Positions 2,541 to 13,721 of a stretch of 14,383 nucleotides of DNA are shown in pieces. Position 1 is the stretch's first letter. Each line of letters begins with the position of its first letter. Both the position numbers and the translations under genes were made by a program. Source of the stretch: a bacterium (lineage in GTDB: Bacteria > ARS69); contig JALGZO010000061.1 in NCBI GenBank assembly GCA_025774865.1, positions 1 through 14,383 of the forward strand, written 5' to 3'. The notes below the pieces were generated by a model. That model did not search any database, was not told the DNA's origin, and saw nothing but the letters and a program-made list of their open reading frames with translations.

Positions 2541-5500
2541 CTACACACTCATCAGGATCGCGGTGACCTCGCTCTCGGTCGCGGCCGCGATGACTTCAGC
2601 ATAGATTCCGACCTGCCGCCGATACACCGGCAGCTCGCGCTCAAGCTCCCGGTCGGTCTTGAAGTCGACGACGGTCCAGCGCTCGCCGTCGCGGAACGCG
2701 AGATCCACGACTCCGTCCACGATCGTGCCGTCGCTTTCCTGGAACGTGACCGGAGTTTCGCGCCGGCAGTCGCCCCGCGCCTCGGCCTCGCTCGCGCGCA
2801 CCATCAGCGGATGCGCGAAGGCCTTCTCCACCGTGCGCCGTGCGGCCTCGATCTCGTCCGGCGCTGCACCGAGGATGCGGCCCTGCAGCTCCGTCGTGCG
2901 GCGGATTCCGCCCGCATCGGCGTCGAGGGGAGCGGTCGCGAGCACCGCGTGAACGAGCCCACCGAAGCGAGGGCCGACGGGACGTCCGGCGTCGCGCGGC
3001 AGCTCGACCACTTCGACCGCGGGACCGTCGGAATCCTTGCGAAGGATCGCGCGCTCGGTCGCCGTCTGCACTCGCAGGCTCGGAGTGGACGCGCGGGCGA
3101 TCGACTCGGCCCGACGGGCCGCCCAGGTCTCGTGACGTTTCACGTCGGTCTCGACGTCGTCCTTCTTCGCCTCCTTGCTCATGAGTTGCTCCTGTCGGAC
3201 GCCGAAGAGCGGCGGCGCGTCGAGCCGGATCGTCCGCGGATCCCACCACACGACGTTTCCGTGGCGCCCCGGTCGCACGGACGAGAAACCGCCGGCCTCG
3301 TGCGGGCGATCGAGCGTGCTGTCCTTTCCGAACGGCGGGCACCCGGGCGCCTCTTCGGCTTCCGCCCACCTTTCGTGGGGTGGGTAGATCGCGTCGTTCA
3401 ACGGCGCGACCCAGCCGACGGGGGAGACGCGGCCGGATTCTTCCTCGCGGGTCTCGCCGAAGCGCTGGTCGCCGACCGCGGGCACCACCAGGAGGTCGCG
3501 GGCGCGAGTGGCCGCGACGTAGGCGACCCGGATCCCCTCCGCGCGATCGCGACGAACCTCTTCCTCCTGGGCATCCAGGAGCTCGGCCGGTGACCAGCCG
3601 GCGATGCGGACTGCGGCAAGCTCGGTCTCCGGTTCGATCATGCGGGTCGCCGTGTTGCGTGCGAGGTCCGCCGTCATGTCGGCGAGAATCACGATGGGGA
3701 ACTCGAGCCCCTTCGCCTTGTGCACCGTCATGATGCGGACGCCTTCGCTCCCCTCTTCGAGGATCGGCGCCTCGCCCGCCTTGCGTCCGTCGGCGTCCTC
3801 GATCAGCCGTTCGATGAATCCGCGAAACGAGATTCCGCCTCCGCTCTCGTAGCCACGTGCTTGCTCCGCTACGTGGAGGACGTTGGCCAGCGCTTGTTCT
3901 CCGGAAGGGCGGAGCGCGAAGCCCGCGTGCGCCCGAGTCTTCTCGAGCAACAGATTGATCGTCTCGGCGATCGGCCGGCGGTTCCGCCGTCGATGCAAGT
4001 CCCCGAGGATCTCCAGCGCTTCCCAAATCGGCGCGAGGTGCTCGGGCAGGTCGTCCTTCGGCCGGCGGAAGGGGTGAACTCGTTTGAAGCGGTGCCGGTA
4101 CTCGAGAAGCGCCTCGTCCCCGACGGCGAAGAGCGAACCCTTCAAGGTGGCGAAGACGGAGAGTTCGTCGTCGGGCCACTCGATCGCAGAGAGCGCGGTA
4201 CGGATCGTCTCGACCTCTTCACGCTCGTGAAATGACCGCCCGCCGACGAGCAGGTGCCGGACCCCGCGCGCCTCGAGCGCCTGGACGTACGAGCGCGTGA
4301 CGTCGCCGGCGAAGAAACTGTCGAATCGCCGGAAGAGGAGGCAGACGTGACGCGCGTTAACCGGGACGCGTTCCTCCGGGTTCTCGCGCTCGGTGACGGT
4401 CCACCCGCTCTCGTTCAGGAGCCACTCGACGAACGCGCCGACGGCGTCCGGCAGCGAGCGCTCGATCGCGCTCTTCGTGACGTTGCGATAGCCGTACGGG
4501 CGCGGCACCGGCAGTGCGACGAGCGCAGGCTGATCGACGCTCGGCTCACGAAACGGCGAGAGCGCAACGTATTCCGCCTGGTGCGACTCGACGTCCCCAT
4601 CCATGAGGTCGGGGAACACGTCGTTGACCGCTGCCTGGATCTCCGGGACGGCGCGGAAGCTCGTTGTGAGGTGCACGTGTCGCGCGCCACGCGCCAGGAG
4701 CATCTCCTTGACCTCCAGGTAGATGCTCACGTCGGCGCGCCGGAATCGGTAGATCGACTGCTTCGGGTCCGCGACGAGGAAGAGCTTGCCGGGAGTCGGC
4801 TCGACTTCGCGCCAGTCGCGCGCGCCCTCGTCGGTGGCGACGAGAAGCAGGAGAATTTCCGCCTGCAGCGGATCCGTGTCCTGGAACTCGTCGACGAACA
4901 GGTGGGTGAAGCGCCGCTGAAAATCGGCGCGCACGTCCCGGTTGTCGCGGATCAGGTCTCGAGCCCGGATGAGCAGGTCGACGAAATCGAGGCGGCCGGT
5001 CCGCCGCTTCAGCTGGTCGTACCGGTCGATCGTCTCGAAGAGCTCCCGCTGCAGGAGGGCGGCCAGGTCGGCGTCCGCGTCACGGGAGAAGACGCGAAGC
5101 GCCTCGTGGAGCTCGCGATGGGCGGCGTGCGCCTGCTCGCGCGGGACCCCCTTCCCGTACGACTTGCCGTAACCCTTCCGCACGCGTCCGAACTTCCAGC
5201 CACCGAGGTCGATGAGCGACGCTTCCACCCCGTCGTAGTCGCGAGGCCGCACGGTCTCGGCGGTGCGGAGCTCTCGACTGAGGCGCCGCGCACGCTCAGT
5301 GTCCTTGTAGAAGTTGTCACTCCCCTTGGTCGGCTGATCCGTGAGATCCGAGAACTCGTGGAGTCTCTCGACGAGCTCGTCGATGCGGGTCTCGCGCGGG
5401 AAGTCGCGGCGCCGCCAGGGCGCCGGGAAGTCGCGCCAATCGCACAGAGTCCACCCGGCGAGGCGAAGCCGCCCGACCGGTCCGTCGTCAGACTGCGAGT

Positions 5501-6023
5501 GAGAGATGCGACGGAGCGAGCGCCGTACGCCCTCCGGAGGGTCTTCGAGCTTCTCCTGCAGCCAGAAATGAAACGCCTCGGAGTAGAGACGCTCAGCCTC
5601 GCCGTCCGTCATCGTCTCGAACTTCGGGTCGACCTCCGCCTCGATCGACCGCTCGCGAAGGAGATCCGCGCAGAATCCGTGGATCGTTCCTACCCGAGCC
5701 TCCTCCAACCGCGCCAGAGCCTTCTCGAGGCGATCGTGGCGGTCGCGGTCGACCGAAGCCTCCTGCCGCGCCTTCTCGAGGCCGGCCCGCATCCGAAGCT
5801 TCAGCTCGCCCGCCGCCTTTTCGGTGAACGTCACCGCGACGATGCTGTCGACTCGAGCCCGCCCTTCCGCGAGGACCGCAACGATGCGGTTCACGAGCTC
5901 GGTCGTCTTTCCGGTACCGGCCGCCGCCTCCACGAGGAGGTTGTCGTCGAGCTCGCGGGCGATGACCGTGCGCGCGTCGGCGTCGGCGAGTGCGGGAGCG
6001 GGCCCCGCGGCGGTCTTCGTCAC
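2541..6023 (-). CDS. addA: AddA-like ATP-dependent helicase/exonuclease subunit
   Basis: This is a superfamily 1 (UvrD/RecB-type) 3'-5' helicase fused to a RecB-family nuclease, the motor subunit of AddAB, which unwinds and resects DNA double-strand ends for RecA loading. Counting from the GTG start (1160 residues): Walker A AAAGTGKT 33-40, motif Ia TFTEKAAGEL 65-74, Walker B DEFQDTD 378-384, motif III LVADPKQSIYRFR 416-428, motif IV TSFR 454-457, motif V TVHKAKGLEFP 766-776, motif VI YVAATRARD 835-843. The nuclease has GGLVH 1021-1025, D1107, DFKTD 1120-1124 and Q1137xxxY1141, so it appears catalytically complete. Length is close to the roughly 1230 residues of Bacillus AddA. The GTG start was chosen because GAGGGGA precedes it by five bases and its first bases form a GTGA overlap with the addB stop. 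A longer reading to 6131 would overlap addB by 37 codons. Confidence 0.93.
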   Translation of the reverse strand: MTKTAAGPAPALADADARTVIARELDDNLLVEAAAGTGKTTELVNRIVAVLAEGRARVDSIVAVTFTEKAAGELKLRMRAGLEKARQEASVDRDRHDRLEKALARLEEARVGTIHGFCADLLRERSIEAEVDPKFETMTDGEAERLYSEAFHFWLQEKLEDPPEGVRRSLRRISHSQSDDGPVGRLRLAGWTLCDWRDFPAPWRRRDFPRETRIDELVERLHEFSDLTDQPTKGSDNFYKDTERARRLSRELRTAETVRPRDYDGVEASLIDLGGWKFGRVRKGYGKSYGKGVPREQAHAAHRELHEALRVFSRDADADLAALLQRELFETIDRYDQLKRRTGRLDFVDLLIRARDLIRDNRDVRADFQRRFTHLFVDEFQDTDPLQAEILLLLVATDEGARDWREVEPTPGKLFLVADPKQSIYRFRRADVSIYLEVKEMLLARGARHVHLTTSFRAVPEIQAAVNDVFPDLMDGDVESHQAEYVALSPFREPSVDQPALVALPVPRPYGYRNVTKSAIERSLPDAVGAFVEWLLNESGWTVTERENPEERVPVNARHVCLLFRRFDSFFAGDVTRSYVQALEARGVRHLLVGGRSFHEREEVETIRTALSAIEWPDDELSVFATLKGSLFAVGDEALLEYRHRFKRVHPFRRPKDDLPEHLAPIWEALEILGDLHRRRNRRPIAETINLLLEKTRAHAGFALRPSGEQALANVLHVAEQARGYESGGGISFRGFIERLIEDADGRKAGEAPILEEGSEGVRIMTVHKAKGLEFPIVILADMTADLARNTATRMIEPETELAAVRIAGWSPAELLDAQEEEVRRDRAEGIRVAYVAATRARDLLVVPAVGDQRFGETREEESGRVSPVGWVAPLNDAIYPPHERWAEAEEAPGCPPFGKDSTLDRPHEAGGFSSVRPGRHGNVVWWDPRTIRLDAPPLFGVRQEQLMSKEAKKDDVETDVKRHETWAARRAESIARASTPSLRVQTATERAILRKDSDGPAVEVVELPRDAGRPVGPRFGGLVHAVLATAPLDADAGGIRRTTELQGRILGAAPDEIEAARRTVEKAFAHPLMVRASEAEARGDCRRETPVTFQESDGTIVDGVVDLAFRDGERWTVVDFKTDRELERELPVYRRQVGIYAEVIAAATESEVTAILMSV
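6020..6023 (-). other. 4-bp stop/start overlap coupling addB and addA
   Basis: On the minus strand the bases read GTGA: GTG starts addA and TGA ends addB. The addA ribosome site GAGGGGA lies inside the last addB codons. Such overlaps usually give coupled translation and near-equal subunit amounts, as expected for a heterodimer. Confidence 0.8.
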
Positions 6024-9000
6024 GGTAGTCCCCTCAACGCCCGCAGGTCTTCGATCAGCGCCGGGGCCTTGCGCCCGGCGCGGATTTCCTCGCTCGGCCC
6101 GCACACGGCGCGGAAGTCGCACCAGGCGCACGCGTTCTTGCGCGGGGCCGGAGGCAACGTGCCGCTCTCGACTGCGCGGTCCACGATCTCCATCACCTGA
6201 TTGGCGTAATGACGCGCGAAGTCGTGCAGGGGGATGTTCACTTCCGTGAAGCGCCCGCGCGACGTGCAGAAGAAGAGACGCGCCGACTCGACAGTGCCGG
6301 GCAGCGCCTTCTCGACCGCGAGACTGTAGAGGGCGGGTTGAAGGATCTCGCCGCCGCCCACGATCGTCCCCTCACTCGGTGGGTGCGCACCCGTCTTGTG
6401 ATCGGTGACGCGGAGGTGACCGTCTCCGGGGCGCCGTTCGATCAGATCCACGGCGCCACGGAGCTTCCAGCCTCCGGGCAGAATGACGGGGTCTGGGAGT
6501 GAGTCCGCAGCGTCGAACCGGTCTCGCAGTCCGAACGCGAACTCGAAGTGCTCGGGTACCCAATCTTCGTCTTCGGACATCATCTTTAACCAGACGCGAA
6601 GGTCGCCGCGGATGGCGCCGACCTCGTCCTGCCACACGCGGAGAATCGCGGGCGCGAGATCCTCCCGGTACTTCGTCTCGACCACGTCCAGCGTATCGTC
6701 GAGGACGGCCGTAGCGTCAGCGAGTCCGCCGGGACGAACCGGTAGCGCGTTCGCGTCCTTCAGGGCGCGTAATGTCTCCGCCTGGATCTCGTGCACCATG
6801 CTTCCCCTCGTCAGCGGATCGAGCTGCACGAGAGCGACCGCTTCGCGCCGCGGTTCGAGCCGGTGGATCGCCGCGAGCAGGAACTGGTAGGGACACGCGG
6901 CGTACCGTTGCAGAGCGGTGACCGAGTAGGGCCGCTCGCTCGGACGCTGGGACGCGAGCGCGGGGGCCGTCCGTTCGGTCGTTCGAACGAGGCCGTCCTC
7001 GGGCGCCCACGCCTTGGCGCGCCATCGGATCCAGCGCGAGCGCAGCGAGCGCGCGAGGTGATCGTTCATCTCGAGCAAGTAACGAGCGCGCCCCTTCACG
7101 TTCGAGGGCCGTGATTCGTCGAGGAGCTTGCGGAGGGTCGACAGATCGTGTTCCACGGCGTCGATTGCGTCCGCCGGCGCGGGCGGCGCCGGCCAGGCCA
7201 GGCGCGCGTTCGTGACCGAGTCGGCCTCGCGCTCGAGCTCCTCGTGGTCGGGGAGGTGGCCGCGCGTGGCGCGGGCGACGTCCAGACCGTAGAAAGAGGG
7301 GACGCGTGGTCGCGCCTCCACCACGTCGACGCGCGGGTACGAGAGAACGACCCGATCCTCGGCGGCGCCGACGGCGAGTTGCAGCAGCATTCGTTCCTCG
7401 TGGCCGCGGCCGATCTGCGTGCGCAACCCGTCCGAGAGAGAGAGACGTCGCGCGTCGAGGAGTAGCGGATCCTCGCGCGGACGGCGCGGAAACACGCGCT
7501 CGGCGAGGCCGGGCACGAACACGACCCGGAAGCTCCGGCCGCGCGCAGCGTCGGGCGTGGCCACGTACACGCGACCGAAGCGGCTTGCCGGCTGCTCCTT
7601 CTCGAGAGTCGAGAGCCGTTCGGCGAGGACTGAGCTCACCTCCTCGATGGTCAGCGGACCGACCGCCGCCATCGGGTGCATCTCGGCGAGGACGCCGAGG
7701 ACGCGATCGGGTCGTCGCAGGACGCTCGGCGCCAGATCCGAGAGGATGCGAAGCCACTCTCCCCAGGTGGCCCGGTCCGGGAAATCGTCGAGCGCGTCGA
7801 TGATCGGCAGCGCGAAACGCTCGAGGTGTCCGAGGTTCGTGATCTCGCGCTCGAAGGCGGGGATGCGAGGCGACTCGGGCTCTTCCGCGGCGAGGCGTTC
7901 GAGCTTCATCTTCAGCTCGTTCTCGAGTCCTGCGAGCCGTCGCCGCCAACGGTCCCTCCCGCCGATGACGGCCGCCTCCACGAGATACTCCTCCCACTTC
8001 CACGGGGCACGGAGGGTTCCTGCGACCTGCGGCCCGTCGTCGGCGGGGGCGGCCGCGGTCGCCTCCGTCGGCTCCTTCGGGAAGAGCGCGAGCTGGACGA
8101 TGTTCGCCGCCGCCCCGAGGCTCTCCTCGTCCGAACCGACCCAGGTCTCGCGACCCGCCGGTGGCGCTCCATCGGGTTCGAGATCCGGCACCTGGCTGAA
8201 CGACAGGTACTCCGAGAAGCGCTTGGCCGAGAGCCCCTCCGTCTTGCACGCCAGGAGCGCGAGAAACGCACGCCCGGAGGGGTCGGGGCGCTTCGTACCG
8301 CGGGCGAAGTAGGCGGGGATTCCCGCGCGACGGAACGCGGTCTCCAGGTGGGCCGAATAGAGCTCCGGAGCCCGGAGGAAGACCGCGATCTCGTCGAACG
8401 CGACCTCGTTCCTCGTCGCGCGGACGATCTGTCGCGCGATCTCGACGCATTCGCGCGCCTCACCCGGCGCGGAAAAGAACCGCACGCTCTCGTCGAGTTC
8501 GCGTTGCGGAGGTTTGTCGTCCGAAAACAGGAACGATTGAAGACGCGAGAGGCTCGTGACGCGACGCGATTTCGAATCGCGCGCGAAGGGCTCGACCGGG
8601 CCGATCGCATCGAGCGCGGTCACGGTCTCGCGGTCGCCGGCGGGCACGGTAGCGAAGACGGCTTTCGATCTCGCGAGCAGGTTGCCGAGGAACTCGCGCT
8701 CCAAGGCGGATCCGATCGCGACATCGAGCAGCAGGACCGGTGCGGTACGAAGGTCGCGCAGCTCGTCGAGGCCGCGGATCGCGAGACGCAGCATCGCCGG
8801 CCGATCGGCGATCGACGCCTTCCCGAGCTCTTCCTCAAACAGGCCGTGGAGCAGGGCCAGGTCGCGCGGCTCGCGGGCTCCGTCCGCGGCACCGCTTCCG
8901 TCAGCGTCGCCCGTGGCCGCCGAGTCGAGACCCGCCAACCGCAGCTCCCCGACGGTGGAGGCGAGCGCCCGGGCGAATCCGGGGAACTCGGCGGCCTTCT

Positions 9001-9334
9001 CGAGGTGCGGCAGGGCGGCCCGATGCACTCCTTCGAACGTAGCGCGGGCCGCGACGGCTTCCACTCCGAGAGGCGTCGCCGGGGTCTGCTCGTTCCGCGC
9101 AAGCTCACTCGTCGCGAGACGCGCGACGAGTTGCATGAAGCTGAAGCGGTGAAGACCGAATGTCGCGCCGCGTCCGGCGAGTCGCCTCACCGAGAGACCG
9201 CGCACGAAGTCGTCCACGGCCGGCCGGCTCGCCCCGACGATCAGTACTTCGGACGCGGGAGGACAGGAGCGCACGAAGGTGCCGGCGGCGGTCAGGCGTT
9301 CGCGACTGGAGCTGGATTCGAAGAGCTGGATCAT
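6020..9334 (-). CDS. addB: AddB-like nuclease subunit (inactivated helicase plus PD-(D/E)XK nuclease with Fe-S cluster)
   Basis: This is the partner of AddA in the end-resection complex, 1104 residues from the preferred ATG. The N-terminus (VLIVGASRPAVDDFVR, about 30-45) sits where helicases carry Walker A but lacks GKT, so no ATP hydrolysis is expected. Later helicase-like remnants remain (VYVATPDAARGRSFRVVFVPGL; MLLQLAVGAAEDRVVLSYP). The C-terminal nuclease has GSMVH 844-848, D963, DHKTG 978-982 and Q999xxxY1003. C814 (in YAACPYQF) together with C1069, C1072 and C1078 (CX2CX5C) gives the four ligands of the AddB-type 4Fe-4S cluster. The start at 9334 has GAGG six bases upstream and a possible promoter at 9364-9391. 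The frame stays open back to a GTG at 9430, but that extension is low-complexity Arg/Pro sequence without a ribosome site. The gene is first in the operon; its TGA overlaps the addA GTG. Confidence 0.9.
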   Translation of the reverse strand: MIQLFESSSSRERLTAAGTFVRSCPPASEVLIVGASRPAVDDFVRGLSVRRLAGRGATFGLHRFSFMQLVARLATSELARNEQTPATPLGVEAVAARATFEGVHRAALPHLEKAAEFPGFARALASTVGELRLAGLDSAATGDADGSGAADGAREPRDLALLHGLFEEELGKASIADRPAMLRLAIRGLDELRDLRTAPVLLLDVAIGSALEREFLGNLLARSKAVFATVPAGDRETVTALDAIGPVEPFARDSKSRRVTSLSRLQSFLFSDDKPPQRELDESVRFFSAPGEARECVEIARQIVRATRNEVAFDEIAVFLRAPELYSAHLETAFRRAGIPAYFARGTKRPDPSGRAFLALLACKTEGLSAKRFSEYLSFSQVPDLEPDGAPPAGRETWVGSDEESLGAAANIVQLALFPKEPTEATAAAPADDGPQVAGTLRAPWKWEEYLVEAAVIGGRDRWRRRLAGLENELKMKLERLAAEEPESPRIPAFEREITNLGHLERFALPIIDALDDFPDRATWGEWLRILSDLAPSVLRRPDRVLGVLAEMHPMAAVGPLTIEEVSSVLAERLSTLEKEQPASRFGRVYVATPDAARGRSFRVVFVPGLAERVFPRRPREDPLLLDARRLSLSDGLRTQIGRGHEERMLLQLAVGAAEDRVVLSYPRVDVVEARPRVPSFYGLDVARATRGHLPDHEELEREADSVTNARLAWPAPPAPADAIDAVEHDLSTLRKLLDESRPSNVKGRARYLLEMNDHLARSLRSRWIRWRAKAWAPEDGLVRTTERTAPALASQRPSERPYSVTALQRYAACPYQFLLAAIHRLEPRREAVALVQLDPLTRGSMVHEIQAETLRALKDANALPVRPGGLADATAVLDDTLDVVETKYREDLAPAILRVWQDEVGAIRGDLRVWLKMMSEDEDWVPEHFEFAFGLRDRFDAADSLPDPVILPGGWKLRGAVDLIERRPGDGHLRVTDHKTGAHPPSEGTIVGGGEILQPALYSLAVEKALPGTVESARLFFCTSRGRFTEVNIPLHDFARHYANQVMEIVDRAVESGTLPPAPRKNACAWCDFRAVCGPSEEIRAGRKAPALIEDLRALRGLP

Positions 9335-9363
9335 CCGTCGCCTCGGGGGCCGAGCCTGGCTGG

Positions 9364-9391
9364 AGAGTAGCCGATTGCCCGGAGTCGGCAA
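9364..9391 (-). promoter_or_regulatory. Possible addB promoter
   Basis: On the minus strand TTGCCG (9391-9386) is followed, after 16 bp, by TACTCT (9369-9364). These match the consensus hexamers at four and three of six positions. Transcription would start near 9357, about 23 bases before the chosen ATG. This is a weak match and the family of sigma factor is unknown. Confidence 0.3.
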
Positions 9392-9426
9392 GCGGGATTG
9401 CCGCGTGACGGTCGGGCACGAGCGAA

Positions 9427-9443
9427 GCACGATCGGTTCGTGC
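9427..9443 (+). promoter_or_regulatory. Inverted repeat (possible operator) in the addB/GAF intergenic region
   Basis: GCACGA, five bases, then TCGTGC forms a perfect 6-bp inverted repeat at 9427-9432 and 9438-9443. A further direct copy of GCACGA lies at 9416-9421. The repeat abuts TAATCT (9444-9449), which with the preceding TGC could act as an extended -10 for the GAF gene. The leader would then be about 77 bases. Binding by a regulator is inferred from the geometry only. Confidence 0.35.
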
Positions 9444-12609: not shown

Positions 12610-12639
12610 CGTTGCCGAGAGAGACACGGGCGGGCAACG
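12610..12639 (+). terminator. Weak hairpin downstream of the 672-residue secreted-protein gene
   Basis: CGTTGCC (12610-12616) pairs with GGCAACG (12633-12639) across a 16-base loop, 20 bases after the stop. There is no T-run after it. It lies immediately before the promoter of the radical SAM gene, where a terminator would be useful, but its strength is doubtful. Confidence 0.3.
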
Positions 12640-12644
12640 ACACC

Positions 12645-12674
12645 TTGAAAAACTAGACATGCGTCTAGTATTCT
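12645..12674 (+). promoter_or_regulatory. Promoter of the radical SAM gene, predicted to give a leaderless mRNA
   Basis: TTGAAA (12645-12650) and TATTCT (12669-12674) are separated by 18 bp in a conspicuously AT-rich patch. They match the sigma-70 hexamers at four of six positions each. With the last -10 base at position -7, the transcript starts at 12681, which is the A of the ATG. No Shine-Dalgarno sequence precedes that ATG, and an in-frame TAG at 12666-12668 rules out any upstream start codon of the usual kinds. Confidence 0.6.
12652..12669 (+). promoter_or_regulatory. Perfect 7-4-7 inverted repeat within the promoter spacer (operator)
   Basis: ACTAGAC (12652-12658), ATGC, then GTCTAGT (12663-12669) is a perfect inverted repeat that fills the -35/-10 spacer and touches the first base of the -10. 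A bound dimer would block RNA polymerase. The form fits TetR- or MarR-type operators; LexA-type sites in some phyla also have a 4-base centre. No regulator gene lies in the window. Confidence 0.65.
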
Positions 12675-12680
12675 ATCGGC

Positions 12681-13721
12681 ATGCCAGCCTCGTCTCCTTC
12701 CCGCTTGCGGCGCATTTGGAACCCGCCGAATCCGTACCTCTCCCGGCAGAGGGAGCTCCTCGGCGAGCCGCCGGTGGCGGACCTCGAGATCTACGAAGAT
12801 CGTTCTCGATCGATCCTCTCCGAGAACGACAGCCCCGACGTCGGCTTCCGCTGGAGCGTGAACCCGTACCGCGGCTGCTTCCACGCGTGCTCCTACTGCT
12901 ACGCGCGTCCGACTCACGAATACCTGGGATTGGGAGCCGGCACGGACTTCGAGCGCAAGATCTTCGTCAAGCCCCAGGCGCCGGCTCTTCTCGAGAAAGC
13001 GTTTCGGAGGAAGAGCTGGCGCGGCGAGCTCGTCGCGTTCTCGGGCGTGACCGACTGCTATCAACCGCTCGAGGCCGCGTGGAATCTGACGCGTCGCTGC
13101 CTGGAAGTGTGCGAGAGGTTCGCGAATCCCGTCGCCATCGTGACCAAGTCGCAGCTCATCCGCCGGGACGCGGACTTGCTGAAGCGCCTCGCGGATCTGA
13201 CCTACGTCAACGTCGCCATCAGCATCCCGTTTCTTCGCGAGGACGTGACCCGGAAGATGGAGCCCGGGGCGCCGTCGGTGAGAAGACGGTTCGAAACGAT
13301 GCGCGAATTGGCCGACGCCGGGATCCCCGTGGGGATCGCCGTCGCGCCGATCATCCCGGGGCTCAACGACACCGACATTCCGCGCCTGTTGCAGGAGGCA
13401 CATCGCTGTGGGGCGAGCTCGGCGTTCCGAGTGTTGCTCAGACTTCCCGGGAGCACGCGCGCGGTCTTTCTCCATCGTCTGGGCGAGCAGATGCCGTTGC
13501 GCGCCTCCCGCGTCGAGAACCGGATCCGCGACGTGCGAGACGGCAAACTCAACGACAGCCGTCTCGGTAAGCGAGGGCGAGGGGAGGGCGGTTACTGGGA
13601 GACGATCGAGCGAGTGTGGAGCCTCTGGACCCGCCGCCTCGACTTGCGCGACGGTGACGATTCTCGTGCAGTGGTCGCGGCGGAGAAACGCGCGCCCCGG
13701 CAGCAGGAGCTCCGCTGGTAG
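12681..13721 (+). CDS. SplB-like radical SAM protein, PA0069/Rv2578c type
   Basis: The 346-residue protein carries the radical SAM cluster motif CFHACSYC (CX3CX2C: C66, C70, C73) inside NPYRGC...YARPTHEYLG, a signature shared by spore photoproduct lyase-like proteins and the PA0069 family. Further family marks are ERKIFVKPQAP (91-101), FSGVTDCYQPLE (120-131), VAIVTKSQLIRRD (151-163) and the late-barrel IAVAPIIPGLND. The cluster should reductively cleave S-adenosylmethionine to a 5'-deoxyadenosyl radical; the substrate of this family is not established. C126, C140 and C144 are additional cysteines; whether any acts as a hydrogen donor, as in SplB, is unknown. Length is normal for the family. 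The conserved NPPNPYL segment begins at residue 14, so the start at 12681 is required even without a ribosome site. The gene converges on the transporter gene with a 9-bp gap. A DNA-repair or RNA/protein-modification role is only a guess. Confidence 0.88.
   Translation: MPASSPSRLRRIWNPPNPYLSRQRELLGEPPVADLEIYEDRSRSILSENDSPDVGFRWSVNPYRGCFHACSYCYARPTHEYLGLGAGTDFERKIFVKPQAPALLEKAFRRKSWRGELVAFSGVTDCYQPLEAAWNLTRRCLEVCERFANPVAIVTKSQLIRRDADLLKRLADLTYVNVAISIPFLREDVTRKMEPGAPSVRRRFETMRELADAGIPVGIAVAPIIPGLNDTDIPRLLQEAHRCGASSAFRVLLRLPGSTRAVFLHRLGEQMPLRASRVENRIRDVRDGKLNDSRLGKRGRGEGGYWETIERVWSLWTRRLDLRDGDDSRAVVAAEKRAPRQQELRW

Follow-up and report, generated by a model that had tools for sequence, protein, structure and literature searches.

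Introduction

The LexA repressor holds SOS promoters closed until RecA triggers its self-cleavage and the promoters are released, a cycle that is well established. The DNA motif recognised by LexA varies between phyla, 17 motifs having been reported by 2021 (PMC8565304), and radical SAM genes, of COG1533 or otherwise, have been named among the targets of SOS control for Bacteroidetes and a number of further groups (PMC8565304), in alpha- and beta-Proteobacteria (PMC3323433), and in Gram-positives and Balneolaeota (PMC7739468). Leaderless, TA-led bacterial genes form the second group of relevance here, and are recognised by a TANNNT located some 12 nt 5' of the start codon together with the lack of a Shine-Dalgarno (SD) sequence (PMC3160421).

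We analysed a promoter located in a 14,383-nt stretch of bacterial DNA (hereafter, the window), in front of a radical SAM gene. With known LexA/SOS regulons (lexA, imuA-imuB, dinB, splB/COG1533) the system shares LexA-type repressor genes in the sister genomes, a palindrome lying over the promoter spacer, and targets that include genes for translesion polymerases as well as a radical SAM gene of COG1533; it differs from them in that no box was seen near recA and in effector promoters that are nearly leaderless. The motif TAGACN4GTCTA is also unlike the literature LexA motifs with which it was compared, a set covering part of those known (e.g. TTACN3GTAA, GGTTN10AACC and GTTCN7GTTC). Leaderless TA-led genes (PMC3160421) likewise lack an SD and have a TANNNT that begins 12 nt 5' of the ATG, whereas in the present case the -10 directly adjoins a repressor box and leaderless starts appear to make up a minor class in the genomes concerned. 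The type of regulon is already well known, and what seems to be new is the DNA word used by the familiar repressor LexA, not the kind of system.

With a probability of roughly 0.85, we read the stretch as a promoter of the sigma70 type in which a palindrome for LexA binding takes up the spacer, and which would drive an SOS-induced, leaderless radical SAM gene. This would give a poorly known phylum, represented by five genomes, an SOS box open to testing, with the same motif in another phylum, would tie an uncharacterised radical SAM family once again to the DNA-damage response, and would offer a concrete gene set in which transcriptional repression and predicted leaderless translation are placed within the same 40 bp.

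The radical SAM gene and its promoter

The anatomy of the promoter was read directly from the window, giving caccTTGAAAaACTAGACATGCGTCTAGTATTCTatcggcATGCCAGCC. The features are as follows.

12645 to 12650, forward strand: -35-like hexamer TTGAAA, 5 of 6 consensus matches
12651 to 12668: spacer of 18 nt between the -35-like and -10-like hexamers
12652 to 12669, no strand: perfect dyad ACTAGAC-ATGC-GTCTAGT, with the core CTAGACN4GTCTAG at 12653 to 12668; predicted LexA/SOS box
12666 to 12668, forward strand: in-frame TAG, which rules out an upstream start
12669 to 12674, forward strand: -10-like hexamer TATTCT, 4 of 6 consensus matches; a TANNNT beginning 12 nt 5' of the ATG
12680 to 12682, forward strand: predicted transcription start, on or adjoining the A of the ATG, as placed by the usual 6-8 nt distance from the -10
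12681 to 13721, forward strand: PA0069-family radical SAM protein of 346 aa, with CxxxCxxC at residues 66-73; NF033668, PF04055

The original prediction had placed TTGAAA, an 18-bp spacer and TATTCT in front of an ATG at 12681, and had taken the in-frame TAG to exclude an upstream start; the window sequence bears out the former and contains the latter as claimed. The dyad fills the spacer, its final T being the first T of the -10, and 6 nt (ATCGGC) stand between TATTCT and the ATG at 12681-12683. An inverted repeat, CGTTGCC...GGCAACG (12610-12639), separates the -35 from the preceding gene, with no T-run after it; it is perhaps the terminator of that gene.

The product scores 379.4 bits with NF033668 (PA0069 family), over the curated cut-off of 360, and matches PF04055. 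It carries the CxxxCxxC motif as do the PA0069 and Rv2578c families (NF033668 and NF038135), and it falls under the cut-off of the latter. The start codon at 12681 is supported by a 63%-identical orthologue in the sister genome G001, which aligns from residue 1. Spore photoproduct lyase (TIGR04070) was rejected as an identity, at 18.4 bits versus a cut-off of 400, and a search against solved structures returned weak and partial matches only, the best of them to NifB. As a member of the PA0069 radical SAM family (COG1533, 'splB'-type), the gene is of a type known among SOS targets, and its product probably acts in DNA repair or damage tolerance. A literature search returned no report linking PA0069 or Rv2578c with LexA.

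The dyad in the window genome and its sister genomes

Five genomes (G000 to G004) represented the phylum, G000 being that of the window. The exact core was present in G000 before the radical SAM gene, before ImuA-like and ImuB-like genes (imuA-imuB), and also 5' of a third gene, which has an SD leader; the apparent counterparts of this third gene in G003 and G004, matched by position and sequence, directly precede lexA. An HHH_6 domain was found in these counterparts, and the G000 protein was without a Pfam match; the box-following gene codes for about 335-376 aa (L034, 3127-4134; L033, 988-2118; L035, 4660-5787, reverse strand). The gene for lexA itself was not found in the incomplete assembly of G000, where the contig of L034 ends before the position at which it would be expected. 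Core copies with one mismatch that were examined in G000 lacked promoter context and were treated as background.

Among the sister genomes, G002 has the box before lexA, with one mismatch, and in G003 (two mismatches) and G004 (exact, with a second site closer to lexA) it stands before the lexA operon. The regulators of these three genomes are LexA by TIGR00498, with about 219-226 bits versus a cut-off of 111. Furthermore, an exact box precedes imuAB in G004, a box with one mismatch precedes the dinB operon in G002, and one with three mismatches precedes the radical SAM orthologue in G001, where the -35 is poor and the dyad abuts the -10. The second site in G004 is weaker (CTAGACAAATGTCCAC; L033, 2221-2236) and lies between the box-bearing gene and lexA. 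A protein of 117 aa, which has no Pfam or NCBIfam match, is encoded between the SOS box and dinB in G002 (L041, 1532-1885), in a frame that reaches the start of dinB.

Examination of recA flanks revealed no box with fewer than three mismatches, and recA was therefore rejected as a box target. An operator at recA is not universal in SOS regulons, and its absence was not taken as excluding one.

The radical SAM gene had originally been regarded as an orphan. This description does not hold at the level of the regulon: the promoters of imuA, in both G000 and G004, and of the G002 dinB operon are likewise dyad-filled, their -10 lying 9 nt from the ATG, and the gene belongs to the SOS regulon, LexA binding and induction being predicted.

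The dyad in Omnitrophota

The closest orthologues found by name belong to Omnitrophota and are 66% identical, slightly closer than the orthologue of G001. In G098 and G099 the radical SAM promoter consists of a TTGAA(C/A) -35, a GTAGACN4GTCTAC box and TATAAT, followed after 10 nt by the ATG; in G100 it reads TTGACA-AGTAGACAGTTGTCTAG-TATCCT, with 8 nt to the ATG. Boxes with one mismatch were found in the lexA promoters of G099 and G100. In this small phylum, as in some Omnitrophota, the sequence (C/G)TAGACN4GTCTA(G/C) is best read as the predicted SOS box.

Conservation of the hexamers and of the lack of a leader among orthologues was a question raised with the original prediction. The dyad, the -10 and the 6-nt gap are kept in G001, and the three Omnitrophota orthologues retain the dyad, their gaps being of 8-10 nt. 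The G001 -35 is poor, and a wider survey showed distant Omnitrophota orthologues to be mostly without the box, which is thus not general in that phylum.

In a phylogenetic tree the box-bearing radical SAM proteins cluster with weak to modest support (the branches of L157 and L161, affected by a minus-strand reading problem, are meaningless), and because of this clustering it is possible that gene and promoter were transferred together between the phyla. Two Omnitrophota orthologues without a TAGAC box have TATAAT 6-7 nt 5' of the ATG (L158, 1390-1456; L162, 1350-1408), so that the near-leaderless arrangement may predate the operator.

Transcription start and translation

In the 20 nt 5' of the ATG at 12681 no SD is present, and neighbouring genes starting at 186, 9530 and 10572 have SDs of the GAGG/GGAG type, in agreement with what had been noticed originally. 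By the criterion of PMC3160421 the radical SAM gene is predicted to be leaderless: transcription would start at the A of the ATG or no more than one nucleotide away, and translation of the resulting leaderless mRNA would begin through direct AUG recognition.

It could be argued that LexA controls the gene from this box and that the true start lies elsewhere, in which case the mRNA would have a leader and its leaderlessness would be only apparent. The start site is indeed a predicted one, with a -10 that matches the consensus at just 4 of 6 positions, and the gaps at imuA and the dinB operon are of 9 nt. Against this, the orthologue in G001 preserves the gap of 6 nt, the spacer occupied by the box is that of this very promoter, and an SD is missing upstream of the ATG; we therefore consider a start elsewhere unlikely. 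Near-leaderless SOS genes recur, with gaps of 6 nt at the radical SAM gene and its orthologue and of 9 nt at imuA and the dinB operon. Gaps of 8-10 nt, as at imuA, the dinB operon and in Omnitrophota, imply short leaders of a few nucleotides and not their complete absence. In the lexA operons of G000, G003 and G004, by contrast, the first gene has a leader with an SD.

For comparison, 269 start codons with a nearby upstream stop were surveyed in G000, G002 and G003 (about 1.4 Mb of sequence). An SD was found at about 45% of them, versus 16-23% at a control position. A promoter matching at 9 of 12 positions and located 5-10 nt before the ATG occurred at two starts, one of which was the radical SAM gene, and TANNNT showed a small peak at the 6-nt gap, comprising six genes. 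In view of these two promoters and the small peak, leaderless genes appear to form a small minority here, one in which SOS effector genes are prominent.

A tentative generalisation, against which we would still set the odds, is that TAGACN4GTCTA is a new LexA motif which, in this phylum as well as in one branch of Omnitrophota, governs SOS promoters close to start codons. Its effectors (the radical SAM gene, imuA and the dinB operon) would be leaderless or near-leaderless and the lexA operon of the phylum SD-led, so that effectors and repressor would be translated by different routes during damage.

Identity of the operator

The operator-embedded leaderless promoter proposed originally is well supported by its position and by the orthologues; what the proposal lacked was a name for the operator, which is most likely a LexA box. 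The signal would therefore be DNA damage, and not the state of the ribosome; a special response to the latter, suggested originally as a possibility, gained no support from the analysis. LexA covering the whole spacer would keep RNA polymerase off the promoter; upon DNA damage, RecA would trigger the self-cleavage of LexA and release the promoter, and the radical SAM gene would be induced jointly with lexA, imuAB and dinB. The reported membership of radical SAM/COG1533 genes in the SOS regulons of several phyla fits the SOS reading.

Short dyads in promoter spacers are typical of many repressors, and lexA is not seen in the assembly of the window genome. The dyad might consequently be the operator of another repressor, for example of the TetR family, and the gene might answer a small molecule or a redox signal. 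We regard this as improbable, for the same dyad stands before the lexA operons, imuAB and the dinB operon of the sister genomes and before lexA in Omnitrophota; on account of this recurrence, TetR- and MerR-type operators were set aside.

As to LexA control and the level expected by chance, the window contains one sigma70-like site (0.6 +/- 0.8 in shuffles) and five N4 dyads with 7-bp arms (about three in random sequence); hexamers alone are at chance level and were dropped as stand-alone evidence, and a single dyad is unremarkable. The signal beyond chance comes instead from the genome-wide recurrence of the exact dyad: CTAGACN4GTCTAG has three copies in the 4.7-Mb genome G000 versus 0.011 expected under a second-order Markov model trained on sampled contigs, and its reversed control has none in the same genome. 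All three copies lie within promoter spacers, with flanking -35 and -10 hexamers matching the consensus at 8-10 of 12 positions. Chance hexamers around a fortuitous, functionless dyad, compatible with the window taken alone, are most improbable in view of these three promoters and of the conservation of the dyad at the orthologue and across phyla.

Additional observations

AddA-like and AddB-like helicase-nuclease genes are located in the same window (2541-9430, reverse strand), and the exact CTAGAC dyad was not found 5' of them. The radical SAM gene of G100 is interrupted by a large insert resembling an intein. In two Omnitrophota genomes, PA0069-family radical SAM frames of 688-708 aa (L052, L167 and L168) have their match broken at the CYARxTHEY region, a pattern that an intein would produce, similar to that of the intein-containing Rv2578c family.
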